64,000 bases of DNA from Arcobacter sp. CECT 8983 (GTDB taxonomy: Bacteria; Campylobacterota; Campylobacteria; Campylobacterales; Arcobacteraceae): assembly GCF_004118855.1 (NCBI RefSeq), contig NZ_PDKF01000008.1, positions 310,001-374,000 on the forward strand, written 5' to 3'. Made by a program: the position numbers and the translations under genes. The notes below the pieces were generated by a model. The model made no database searches and was not told the DNA's origin. It saw nothing but the letters and a program-made list of their open reading frames with translations. Positions 38,942 through 45,045 of the stretch are shown piece by piece (position 1 is the stretch's first letter; every line of letters begins with the position of its first letter).

Positions 38942-39730
38942 CTAATCCTTTTTTATAAAGTGCAAAGATATTAATCGTTCTAAAACATCAATAACTTCTT
39001 TATCATCACTTAATGATTCAACAATACAATGAATACAAGCTTGGTATTCATCAAAGCCTTTTTTTATAAGTTTAGCTGCATATACTAAAAGTCTTGTGGA
39101 TACTGCTTCTTGTATATCTGTATCAGTTAACTCTCTTATCTCATTTGCAATATTTACAAGTTTTGTAGCTGTTTTCTCATCAATACTACTCTCTTTTATA
39201 ATAATTTGTTTCTCTTCTTCTTTTTTAGGATAATCAAAACTTAAAGAGATAAATCTTTGTTTTGTACTTGGTTTCATTCCTTTTAGGATGTTTTGATAAC
39301 CAGGATTATAAGAGACAACTAACATAAAATCAGGATGCGCTTCTATTGTTTCACCTGTTCTATCTAAAGGAAGTACTCTTCTGTAATCTGCAAGAGAGTG
39401 TAAGATAACAGTTGTATCTTTTCTTGCTTCAATTATCTCATCAAGGTAACAAATTCCTCCATATCTAACTGCTTTTGTAAGAGGTCCATCTTGCCAATAT
39501 GTACCATTTTCAGAGATTAGATGTCTTCCTAATAAATCAGAAGAAGTTAAATCATCGTGGCAAACAACAGTATAAACTTCTCTATTTAGTTTTTCTCCCA
39601 TTGCTTCAATAAATCTTGTTTTTCCACAACCCGTTGGACCTTTAATTAGTACGGGTAAGCTCATCTTTTCAGCAGCTAAAAAAAGTTGTGTTTCATTGTT
39701 TTGTTCTAAATAGTAAATATCCTTAGACAT
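38942..39730 (-). CDS. norQ: NorQ-type MoxR AAA+ ATPase
   Basis: 262 residues. Walker A KGPTGCGKTRFIEA (about 30-43) and Walker B ICYLDEIIEARKD (about 93-105) of the NorQ/CbbQ group; SYNPGYQNILKGMKPSTKQRF and RELTDTDIQEAVSTRLLVYAAKLI are group-typical. It works with NorD as a chaperone that inserts the non-heme iron of NorB. Last gene of norC-norB-norD-norQ; two bases separate it from norD. The order fits the classic nor operon. Confidence 0.88.
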   Translation of the reverse strand: MSKDIYYLEQNNETQLFLAAEKMSLPVLIKGPTGCGKTRFIEAMGEKLNREVYTVVCHDDLTSSDLLGRHLISENGTYWQDGPLTKAVRYGGICYLDEIIEARKDTTVILHSLADYRRVLPLDRTGETIEAHPDFMLVVSYNPGYQNILKGMKPSTKQRFISLSFDYPKKEEEKQIIIKESSIDEKTATKLVNIANEIRELTDTDIQEAVSTRLLVYAAKLIKKGFDEYQACIHCIVESLSDDKEVIDVLERLISLHFIKKD

Positions 39731-39731
39731 T

Positions 39732-41510
39732 TTAATCCTTTGTTAAATTCATATATATTTCTGGCAAAATTTTTGGAAGTTTTTTTACATTTCTAATTAC
39801 GGTAAAACCAGTTCTTCCAAAAAGGTAAGTAAGGTAGCTTTTTGCTTCTAAATCAATAGTTATGCAAAATGGTACAATTCCCTTTGCTTTTACTTCATTG
39901 ATGGCTTTTTTAGTATCTTCTATGCCATATCTTCCATCATATTTATCCACATCATTTGGTTTACCATCACTTATTATTAGAAGTAATCTATTCTTTGTTT
40001 TTTGAGTTTCTAGTATTTTTGTAGATTGTCTTATTGCTGCCCCTAATCTTGTGTAGTATCCAGGTTTTATGTAATTAATTCTTCCTCTTATAGTATCGCT
40101 ATACTTTTCTTGGAAGTTTTTGATTAAATGAAATTTTACATCTTTGTTTTTCAATGATGAGAAGGCATATATGCTAAAGTTATCTTGCAGTCTTTCTAAT
40201 GCTTCAGCAAATACAATAAGTCCATCTTTTATCATATCTATTACTCTAAGTTCTGAACTAATACCAGCTTCTGTTGATAATGAAGTATCAGCAAGAATCA
40301 GGGTACTCATATCTCTTGTATTTTTTTGAAAGCTTTCAAAAAAGTTTTGCTTATCTACGCTTTTATCTTTTGAACTTTTGTAATCAATCCATGTATTTAG
40401 ATTTATTTCATCACCATTATCAAGATTAGTTCTTTTTATCTTATCTAATTGCATTAAATCTAGTTCATGCTGAACTTGATTTGTTATCTTTTTCAGTCTT
40501 GTAGGAAGTTTTATAGCTTTTATATTTTTTGTAAATATTGGATTTATATTAACAAAATTGTCTAAATATTTTTGTTTTTTATAATCCCATTCATCTAATG
40601 AAAAGTTGGATTTTATAGGATACTCTTCAATTGCATCGTTTTCAATATCTAAATCCATTTTTATTCTTGCATTTAGATTTGCTTTTTTTCTTCCGATTGT
40701 TATTTCATCTAAATCCTGTGCATTGAATAGGGCATTTTCATCAAAACTATCATCTTCACTTCTATCAACATTTACTCTTTCTAAAATACTCATTAGTCCT
40801 TCAGGTAAAAATACCAAAAGTCCATCAGTTTTTGATTTATCATCAATTTTCTCAACCTTTTTTTTCATAAGTAAGGTTTCGGTTTTATCTTTTTGTTCTT
40901 TATTTCTATAAGGTTCATCTTCTTCAAATTTTTCAATAGTTTTTTTCATTTTTAAAGAAGGGTAAACCCACATGTAAAATGGTTGTATTTCTAAAATATT
41001 TTTAGAACTATTTTCATCTAACTTTTTTATAAATTCTAGTTCTTTGTATTGTTCAAAGATTTCATTTGAACAGTTGTTATAAAAATCTTGAAAACCTTCA
41101 TATTTAGATAATAGATATTTTGTTGTTTTAATATTACAAGAGATGATGTTTTTTTTATTTACATCTATATTACTCATCATTGCAATAAGCCAAAAATATA
41201 GAAGTTGATTTGATTTTTCATCTTTAAAGTATGAAATAGAAGGAGGGAGGTAAAGAGCCTCTTCATCTTGCCATGGAAGATAAAACTCTTTTCCTACTCC
41301 AGAAATCTTTTCGCTTAGATTTCTTCTTTTTTTTAAAATGGAACGTTTATCAGTTATATAAAGTTCTTTTGTTTTATCACCTCCTAAAAGGTGATAAAAA
41401 ATTCTTAATGCTTTTTTATTGTCTTCAAAGAAAACCGTTTGTTCTTCAAAGTTTTTTCTTGCTTTTTTAGTAATATATTTATCCCAAACTTTTCCGATAT
41501 ACTCTTCCAT
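39732..41510 (-). CDS. norD: NorD, von Willebrand A-domain nitric oxide reductase activation protein
   Basis: 592 residues. C-terminal VWA domain with the MIDAS start LILADTSLSTEAG (DxSxS, about residues 407-419) and the strand LLLIISDGKPND. The N-terminal two-thirds are helical and charged, including a long acidic stretch (about 190-330). Cytoplasmic; interacts with NorQ to activate NorBC. It is encoded between norB and norQ, in the same direction, ten bases after norB. Length is that of the family. Confidence 0.87.
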   Translation of the reverse strand: MEEYIGKVWDKYITKKARKNFEEQTVFFEDNKKALRIFYHLLGGDKTKELYITDKRSILKKRRNLSEKISGVGKEFYLPWQDEEALYLPPSISYFKDEKSNQLLYFWLIAMMSNIDVNKKNIISCNIKTTKYLLSKYEGFQDFYNNCSNEIFEQYKELEFIKKLDENSSKNILEIQPFYMWVYPSLKMKKTIEKFEEDEPYRNKEQKDKTETLLMKKKVEKIDDKSKTDGLLVFLPEGLMSILERVNVDRSEDDSFDENALFNAQDLDEITIGRKKANLNARIKMDLDIENDAIEEYPIKSNFSLDEWDYKKQKYLDNFVNINPIFTKNIKAIKLPTRLKKITNQVQHELDLMQLDKIKRTNLDNGDEINLNTWIDYKSSKDKSVDKQNFFESFQKNTRDMSTLILADTSLSTEAGISSELRVIDMIKDGLIVFAEALERLQDNFSIYAFSSLKNKDVKFHLIKNFQEKYSDTIRGRINYIKPGYYTRLGAAIRQSTKILETQKTKNRLLLIISDGKPNDVDKYDGRYGIEDTKKAINEVKAKGIVPFCITIDLEAKSYLTYLFGRTGFTVIRNVKKLPKILPEIYMNLTKD

Positions 41511-41520
41511 TTTTCTTCTT

Positions 41521-43358
<1,838 letters not shown>

Positions 43359-43377
43359 TCTAACTCCTTTTTAAATT

Positions 43378-43446
43378 CTACCTTGAGGTAGTATTTTGGA
43401 ATATTATCATTGAATATTTAAATTCTACCTTAAAGTAGAATTTAAA
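43378..43446. promoter_or_regulatory. Two palindromic operators between norC and the Rrf2-type regulator
   Basis: Site 1: CTACCT-TG-AGGTAG at 43378-43391. Site 2: TTTAAATTCTAC at 43417-43428 and GTAGAATTTAAA at 43435-43446, twelve-base perfect arms with a six-base spacer. The two share TTCTACCTT, and their centres are 47 bases apart, about four and a half turns. They lie in the shared 148-base gap between norC and the divergent regulator, the right place for repression of both. Binding is inferred from symmetry. Confidence 0.65.
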
Positions 43447-43506
43447 TTATTTTTAATTAATGGTTTAATGTAAAATCATGTAAAATGATAAAAGTAAAGG
43501 GAATAA

Positions 43507-43920
43507 ATGCAATTACACAACACAACAAAATATGCCATACGAATATTATGCTATATAGCTGATAATGGAAATGAAAAACTATATAATGCAAAAGAGTTAT
43601 CAGAGATATTAGGTATTCCTTATAAATTTTTAACAAAAATAATGATTGAGTTAGTAAATGCAAAATTTGTTAATTCTATAAAAGGTAGAGAAGGGGGATA
43701 TGAACTAATAGCAGATCCTTCAAAAACTAGTATAAAAGATATTTTGGAAACATTTAAAGACTTAGAAGAAGATACTACATGTATTTTAGGTATAGGTCAA
43801 TGTGACTGTAACAATAAGTGTGCATTACATGATAAATGGGTTGAACCAAGAGCTTTAATTAGAAAAATGTATGAAAATACTACCTTAGAAGATATTAAAG
43901 ATAAAGATTTTAAGTTATAA
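43507..43920 (+). CDS. Rrf2-family Fe-S regulator, NsrR-like
   Basis: 137 residues. Winged-helix start TKYAIRILCYIADNG..YNAKELSEILGIPYKFLTKIMIELVNAKFVNSIKGREGGYEL (7-66) is the Rrf2 DNA-binding domain, including the KGREGG wing. Cys92, Cys99, Cys101 and Cys105 (CILGIGQCDCNNKC) probably hold an Fe-S cluster that senses NO or iron. Divergent from the nor operon, so it should control norCBDQ and itself. An NsrR-type role is inferred from location; the cysteine spacing is not identical to that of enterobacterial NsrR. Confidence 0.85.
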   Translation: MQLHNTTKYAIRILCYIADNGNEKLYNAKELSEILGIPYKFLTKIMIELVNAKFVNSIKGREGGYELIADPSKTSIKDILETFKDLEEDTTCILGIGQCDCNNKCALHDKWVEPRALIRKMYENTTLEDIKDKDFKL

Positions 43921-43953: not shown

Positions 43954-45045
43954 ATGAAAAAACTTTTTATTTTTGCAACTCTTTTATTAGCAACTATCCT
44001 ATTTTCTAAGACTAATACTTTTAGCTATAAGTTAGATGAGATAGCTTCTAATCTTGGAAAAGTATGGGGAATGACTTTTTTAAATGAAAAAGAAATTTTG
44101 TTTACTGAACTAAATGGTAAAATAGGAATATTAAATTTAGAAAAGAAAACTATTAGATATCTACTTAATACCCCAACTGTTTATCATAGAGGACAAGGTG
44201 GTCTTTTAGATGTAAAAAAAAGTCCAAACTATGAGAAAGATAAAACTTTATATTTTACATATGTTAAAGAGATAAAGAATAAAGGGGTTACTACTTTAGC
44301 AAAAGTAAAATTTGTAGATAAAAAATTTCAACAATGGAAAGATTTACTTATAACAAAATCATCAAGTGATACCTCAAGGCATTTTGGTAGTAGAATAACT
44401 TTTGATGAAGATGGACATTTATATTTTAGTATAGGAGATAGAGGTGTAAGACCTAATGGGCAAGATTTAACAACCCATGCAGGAACAATTATAAGATTAA
44501 ATCTTGATGGAACTATCCCTAAAGATAATCCTTTTGTAGAAAATCCAAATGCTTTAGATGAAATATATTCCTATGGTCATAGAAATATTCAAGGCTTATT
44601 TTATGATAAAAAGACAAAAAGGTTATGGGCGATTGAGCATGGACCAAGAGGTGGAGATGAAATAAACTTAATAGAAAAAGGTAAGAACTATGGTTGGCCT
44701 ATTATTTCTTATGGTAAAGAGTATTGGGCTCCGCTTTCTGTAGGGGAAGGAACTCATAAAGCAGGTATGGAACAACCTAGAAAATATTATATTCCTTCTA
44801 TTGCACCAAGTTCTTTAATTGTCTATTCTGGAAAAAAATTTAAAGACTTAGAAGGAAAATTATTATCTGGAGCACTTAAACTTACACATCTAAATATAAT
44901 AACTATGAATGATAATGCAGAGTTTGTAGAAGAGAATAGACTCTTTGAAAACTTACATCAAAGAATAAGAAATATTATTGAAGGACCAAAGGGAGAAATT
45001 GTACTATCTTCTGATAGTGGAAAGATCTTTCTTTTAAGGAATTAG
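43954..45045 (+). CDS. PQQ-dependent aldose sugar dehydrogenase-like (YliI/GdhB)
   Basis: 363 residues. Signal peptide MKKLFIFATLLLATILFS, then LGKVWGMTFLNEKEILFTELNGKIGIL, the first blade of the beta-propeller. GQGGLLDVKKSPNYEKD, RHFGSRITFDEDGHLYFSIGDRG, GHRNIQGLFY and EHGPRGGDEINLIEKGKNYGWPIISYG are YliI/soluble glucose dehydrogenase family motifs with the His and PQQ-binding segments. Periplasmic oxidation of aldoses or similar. AGGAGTTTAT precedes the ATG. No PQQ synthesis genes are in the window. Confidence 0.9.
   Translation: MKKLFIFATLLLATILFSKTNTFSYKLDEIASNLGKVWGMTFLNEKEILFTELNGKIGILNLEKKTIRYLLNTPTVYHRGQGGLLDVKKSPNYEKDKTLYFTYVKEIKNKGVTTLAKVKFVDKKFQQWKDLLITKSSSDTSRHFGSRITFDEDGHLYFSIGDRGVRPNGQDLTTHAGTIIRLNLDGTIPKDNPFVENPNALDEIYSYGHRNIQGLFYDKKTKRLWAIEHGPRGGDEINLIEKGKNYGWPIISYGKEYWAPLSVGEGTHKAGMEQPRKYYIPSIAPSSLIVYSGKKFKDLEGKLLSGALKLTHLNIITMNDNAEFVEENRLFENLHQRIRNIIEGPKGEIVLSSDSGKIFLLRN

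Follow-up and report, generated by a model that had tools for sequence, protein, structure and literature searches.

The norC-rrf2 intergenic region and its palindromes

In the window, by which we mean the whole 64,000-nucleotide stretch of Arcobacter sp. CECT 8983 DNA that was analysed, a 148 bp intergenic gap separates the divergently oriented norC (start at 43358, minus strand) and rrf2 (start at 43507, plus strand) genes. The features of this locus are as follows:

38942-39730, minus strand: norQ-like AAA ATPase (CbbQ/NirQ/NorQ C-terminal domain)
39732-41510, minus strand: norD-like von Willebrand A-domain protein
41521-42906, minus strand: norB, NO reductase catalytic subunit (heme-copper oxidase family), 461 aa; matches COX1 with 242 bits
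42912-43358, minus strand: norC, NO reductase cytochrome c subunit, 148 aa; named from its operon context
43364-43368, minus strand: Shine-Dalgarno AGGAG of norC, recognised from sequence
43374-43395, no strand: predicted proximal operator palindrome AATTCTACCTTGAGGTAGTATT, over the predicted norC transcription start; kept in 49 distinct pairs
43401-43409, minus strand: predicted extended -10 element TGATAATAT of the norC promoter, from sequence and from the same geometry across relatives; the start point is deduced
43421-43442, no strand: predicted distal operator palindrome AATTCTACCTTAAAGTAGAATT, over the norC -35 region; kept in 49 distinct pairs
43507-43920, plus strand: Rrf2-family regulator, 137 aa, with C92-x6-C99-x5-C105-x2-H108; proposed repressor acting at both palindromes

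A glucose/sorbosone dehydrogenase-like gene (43954-45045) lies directly 3' of rrf2; the nearest relative, L006, has retained it, and it was not found in the 1.5 kb flanks of the other relatives' loci that were compared.

The gap contains CTACCT-TG-AGGTAG at 43378-43391 and TTTAAATTCTAC-N6-GTAGAATTTAAA at 43417-43446, both within the 43378-43446 that the first-pass annotation had given. The two palindromes are copies of one 27 nt element that are identical at 24 of 27 positions and offset by 47 nt, and the second copy enlarges to a 32 nt palindrome with one mismatched pair (43416-43447). Dinucleotide shuffling of the 148 bp gap produced a palindrome equalling the better of the two in 71 of 5000 shuffles, and both palindromes together in none of the 5000; the paired palindromes to which the first-pass annotation had called attention in this divergent gap are thus real. 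Only these two places in the 64 kb window match the pattern with three or fewer mismatches, where 0.08 matches are expected. A motif search of the genome had also been proposed there, and when the whole genome (2.74 Mb in 24 contigs) was searched with the 22 nt pattern the only exact matches were these same two sites, the next best places having three mismatches.

Predicted organisation of the norC promoter

The -10-like hexamer in the window is TAATAT (43401-43406, minus strand), and the extended -10 element of which it is part lies 18 nt past the distal core and 9 nt ahead of the proximal core. The same order of elements (distal palindrome, TAnnAT-type -10, proximal palindrome, Shine-Dalgarno sequence, start codon) is present in 49 distinct Campylobacterota pairs, the number left when pairs less than 80 nt from a locus end were excluded from an initial 50. 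A simple score that favours TAnnAT plus a ribosome site was used to choose the strand and the -10 for each pair, and the geometry is biased in that direction: the distance from the distal core to the -10 hexamer is 16-19 nt (17 or 18 in 42 of the 49), that from the hexamer to the proximal core is 7-13 nt (8-10 in 46 of the 49), and that from the proximal core to the start codon is 20-22 nt in 35 of the 49. The core letters of the 49-pair matrix are fixed by the search pattern, and the independent information is in the flanks, the inner T and A and the promoter geometry; T is found at -8.5 in 49/49 distal palindromes and A at +8.5 in 48/49.

From this arrangement, norC transcription would begin about 7 nt downstream of the -10, where the proximal palindrome has its edge, and the -35 region would lie under the distal one. 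A start point at one palindrome with the other over the -35 suggests the layout of a repressor. The offset between the two palindromes is 45 bp in 22 pairs, 46 in 10, 47 in 10, 48 in 2 and 49 in 5; since it varies by lineage in this way, helical phasing of, or looping between, the two sites was rejected as a requirement, and because offsets of 45-49 bp are out of helical phase, cooperativity is not implied.

Distribution of the palindrome pair

A homologue of the Rrf2 protein (E ≤ 1e-20) is present in 27 of 104 genomes of the window's family. A relaxed form of the pair was found in 18 of the 104, each of which also has the homologue (Fisher 7e-14, not corrected for shared ancestry); the corresponding backwards control pattern matched in 4 of the 104. 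The strict pair is present in 15 of 398 genomes of the order and its backwards control in 0 of 398. Four genomes that have the homologue and lack the relaxed pair (G046, G047, G050 and G072) carry a degenerate pair before norC, recognised by eye only, and G043 has a weaker degenerate pair than these; G100 has a pair with one mismatched core ahead of a single-chain NO reductase gene, and G039 and G073 have a single site ahead of nrdD. One genome, G090, counts against the association: its Rrf2 protein is 62% identical and has no site beside it, and norC, a norB relative (E ≤ 1e-60) and a single-chain NO reductase were not found in that genome. Single palindromes, with one mismatch allowed, are no commoner than the backwards control in the 104 family genomes, so only the pair is informative.

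We also searched one genome from each of 84,980 prokaryote species, using no gene information, for two CTAC-GTAG palindromes whose cores are 30-36 nt apart. This yielded 73 loci, 36 in Campylobacterota and 37 in other organisms. The 36 are from records named Arcobacter, Halarcobacter, Sulfurovum, Sulfurimonas, Sulfuricurvum, Sulfurospirillum, Campylobacteraceae and Campylobacterales, and they take in L101 (an Epsilonproteobacteria bin) and L131 (a bin counted in the window's family). An Rrf2 homologue is encoded in the fetched locus in 36/36 of these, and an Rrf2 relative was found in none of the 37 other fetched loci. An NO reductase gene follows the pair in 34 of the 36 loci: norC in 32 and, in L064 and L087, a gene whose product is a single-chain NO reductase (738-742 aa, including a NorB cytochrome c-like domain). 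In L069 the pair and a short unlisted ORF separate rrf2 from nrdD, and in L075 it is upstream of a gene for a small secreted protein with no Pfam match. In L101 (6262-6625) the rrf2 matches fall in two frames, probably from a frameshift in the metagenome assembly.

The 37 loci from outside the Campylobacterota were considered as members of the same system and were taken to be unrelated: most are arrays of 22 bp palindromes with a 44 bp offset in Bacteroides/Mediterranea. These tandem arrays (L063, L089, L071 and other Bacteroides/Mediterranea loci) have a unit of ~22 bp built on the palindrome ACTACCTATAGGTAGTT and look intergenic; one Mediterranea massiliensis genome (SUYA records) has ACTACCTATAGGTAGTT arrays at many loci, with no Rrf2 relative in the fetched loci.

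The site travels with the target gene: in Sulfuricurvum L108 and L134 and in G055, rrf2 is at the far end of the nor operon and the pair is still before norC. As in L064 and L087, the site in L025 and L027 is before a single-chain NO reductase gene. Other genes are also preceded by it: in L023 (G087) a pair with three sites lies before a multicopper, nitrite-reductase-like gene (Cu_nitrite_red 171 bits, below the cut-off of 296), and in L142 (G393) a second pair, at 2597-2657, lies before a hemerythrin gene that is divergent from rrf2. G035 and G059 count against a link with NO reductase, as their first pair is before rrf2 with no adjoining NO reductase, their second is followed by the gene for a small secreted protein that fits no known family, and a norCB-like cluster elsewhere in each genome has no site. 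Related Rrf2 genes are found beside nrdD (anaerobic ribonucleotide reductase), with one or two palindrome copies before nrdD (L069:6390-6451, L028:1403 and L200:3491), which suggests that these nrdD-linked relatives form a sister regulon; with nrdD as the partner of a related group, the signal may extend beyond NO. L201, L202 and L203 contain a different norCB-type cluster, whose norB is ~40% identical to the window's, with a Crp/Fnr-like regulator gene upstream in L201 and L202; the palindrome pair was not found in these three loci.

Relationships of the Rrf2 protein

The 137-aa protein scores above cut-off with the Rrf2 superfamily profiles PF02082 (95 bits, cut-off 30) and TIGR00738 (107.4 bits, cut-off 73.3). 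Its AlphaFold2 model (pLDDT 88.6) has a winged-helix fold with a long C-terminal helix, as in the Rrf2 superfamily, and Foldseek matched it to CymR (E 8.9e-9), RsrR (5.9e-8), IscR and DNA-bound NsrR, with E values of up to 2.4e-6 and NsrR ranking behind the other three. C92, C99 and C105 are invariant in 33/33 aligned rows, including E. coli NsrR and IscR, and these three cysteines plus H108 are invariant in the 29 rows of alignment A2. In the 33-row alignment position 8 is Lys, Gln or Glu in the Campylobacterota rows and Asp only in E. coli NsrR. In the tree of these 33 rows the single-chain NO reductase and nrdD groups lack firm resolution and the branches of both E. coli rows are very long, so that no conclusion on origin is drawn from it.

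Several features are shared with NsrR of E. coli, Neisseria and Streptomyces: the Rrf2 fold, three invariant cysteines, palindromic sites over the promoter and targets in NO metabolism. The targets that PMC1274295 gives for NsrR include norB and nirK in some species. The first-pass annotation had proposed the operator of an NsrR-like factor, and what holds of this is a very probable operator that goes with the adjacent Rrf2 protein and has NO reductase genes as targets (34 of 36 loci). Membership of the NsrR subfamily itself was ruled out: with the NsrR equivalog model NF008240 the protein scores 49.6 bits, far below both the cut-off of 182 and the 292.8 bits of E. coli NsrR, it has an IscR-type Cys3-His pattern, and it lacks Asp8, which is the fourth cluster ligand of S. 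coelicolor NsrR as described in PMC5411485. The predicted operator differs as well, as the annotation had correctly said of enterobacterial NsrR sites: here it is AWTACTACYTWWARGTAGWAWT, with the core CTACYTWWARGTAG, which does not fit the NsrR consensus gATGyAT-N5-ATrCATc as given in PMC1274295.

The Cys-Cys-Cys-His pattern, whose C-x6-C-x5-C-x2-H spacing is close to that of IscR (the Fe-S assembly regulator), and the profile and fold similarity are likenesses to IscR, but isc or suf genes were not seen beside the gene in the window or in the loci with ORFs listed, and the protein is below cut-off with both IscR equivalog models of NCBIfam (60.2 bits against 207.55 and 43.5 against 275). It is likewise below cut-off with the NCBIfam SUF regulator model (65.5 bits against 110.65) and with the CymR model (46.4 against 195); RsrR and CymR, also of the Rrf2 family, resemble it in fold and differ in gene context.

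The Nss regulators of Wolinella and Campylobacter are Crp-Fnr-type proteins and so belong to a different family from the Rrf2 protein described here; in 2016 Kern and Simon reportedly described their response, in the same phylum, to nitrate, NO or N2O. To our knowledge, the known NO regulators of Campylobacterota are of this Crp-Fnr type. We found no report of an Rrf2/NsrR-type regulator of NO reductase in Campylobacterota in the open literature, most subscription papers and all bioRxiv preprints being outside the scope of that search.

A candidate NO-responsive repressor

The palindrome pair is very probably an operator and is associated with the neighbouring Rrf2 regulator, a prediction on which phylogenetic footprinting, co-occurrence and promoter geometry agree; a pair that accompanies relatives of the same regulator in many related bacteria is likely to be that regulator's on/off switch. 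The sites, their fixed promoter geometry and their co-occurrence with the regulator and mostly with NO reductase genes extend across several Campylobacterota families. Our preferred reading, to which we assign a probability of roughly 0.78, is that the adjacent Rrf2 protein is an NO-responsive Fe-S repressor that acts at both palindromes and silences norCB(DQ) until NO is present; of its parts, we infer DNA binding, the Fe-S cluster, NO as the signal and repression. With its Fe-S cluster intact, an Rrf2 dimer would occupy each palindrome, the distal one covering the -35 region and the proximal one the start point, with the norC promoter between them, and norCB(DQ) would be silent. NO would then damage the cluster, the protein would leave the DNA, and NO reductase would be made. 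The distal site could also allow rrf2 to regulate itself, but the comparison lends this no particular support: in L108 and L134 rrf2 lies at the opposite end of the operon and the pair has stayed ahead of norC.

A different signal for the same operator and protein is unlikely, but it accounts for several of the observations above. The Rrf2 protein might respond, like IscR or RsrR, to oxygen, redox state or Fe-S supply, with NO reductase as one target of a redox regulon: its cysteine-histidine pattern is of the IscR type and Asp8 is absent, the IscR and SUF regulator models (60.2 and 65.5 bits) outscore the NsrR model, the folds of CymR, RsrR and IscR are nearer than that of NsrR, and relatives adjoin anaerobic ribonucleotide reductase genes. 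Against this, the targets are overwhelmingly NO reductases of two architectures, with nitrite-reductase-like and hemerythrin genes in addition, and an Fe-S assembly gene beside a site was not seen in the loci with ORFs listed.

It is a good deal less probable that the Rrf2 protein is an activator, in which case the distal site, at about -36, would stand in for a weak -35 and a nitrosylated cluster would lead to recruitment of RNA polymerase. There is no clear -35 hexamer, and the spacing of 17-19 nt between the end of the distal core and the -10 in 48 of 49 pairs (the remaining one has 16) puts that site in an activator-like position, but the proximal site is conserved just as well and falls on the predicted start point, where a repressor would be expected, and many copies have an extended -10 (TGnTAnnAT), an element that can function without a -35. 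That the sites belong to another DNA-binding protein, with rrf2 adjacent by conserved synteny only, is very improbable: nor genes and rrf2 do usually adjoin and the genome does encode two further Rrf2 proteins, but both of those genes are away from the palindromes, G066 and G068 (same genus, without the homologue) keep two other Rrf2 genes each and have no pair, and the pair goes with Rrf2 also where its target is not norC (L064, L087, L025, L027 and L023).

A wider picture may be drawn tentatively, at somewhat less than even odds: a separate Campylobacterota branch of the Rrf2 family with an IscR-type Cys3-His site, in place of the Asp ligand of NsrR, might have taken up the job of NsrR independently and with its own operator code (paired CTAC-N6-GTAG astride the promoter), and might control two-subunit and single-chain NO reductases, a nitrite-reductase-like gene, a hemerythrin gene and, in a sister group, anaerobic ribonucleotide reductase. 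The regulator and its operator code are candidates for the control of NO reductase in sulfur-oxidising and denitrifying Campylobacterota (Arcobacter, Sulfurimonas, Sulfurovum and Sulfurospirillum), and the system allows a test of whether an IscR-type cluster site can serve as a dedicated NO sensor. The paired-operator pattern is usable for regulon mapping and bears on the N2O output of the Campylobacterota concerned.

In L075 (6073-6134) and L022 (2269-2331) the gene that the pair precedes, beside rrf2, encodes a small secreted protein (106-112 aa) without a Pfam match, which could possibly be a new NO-related protein.
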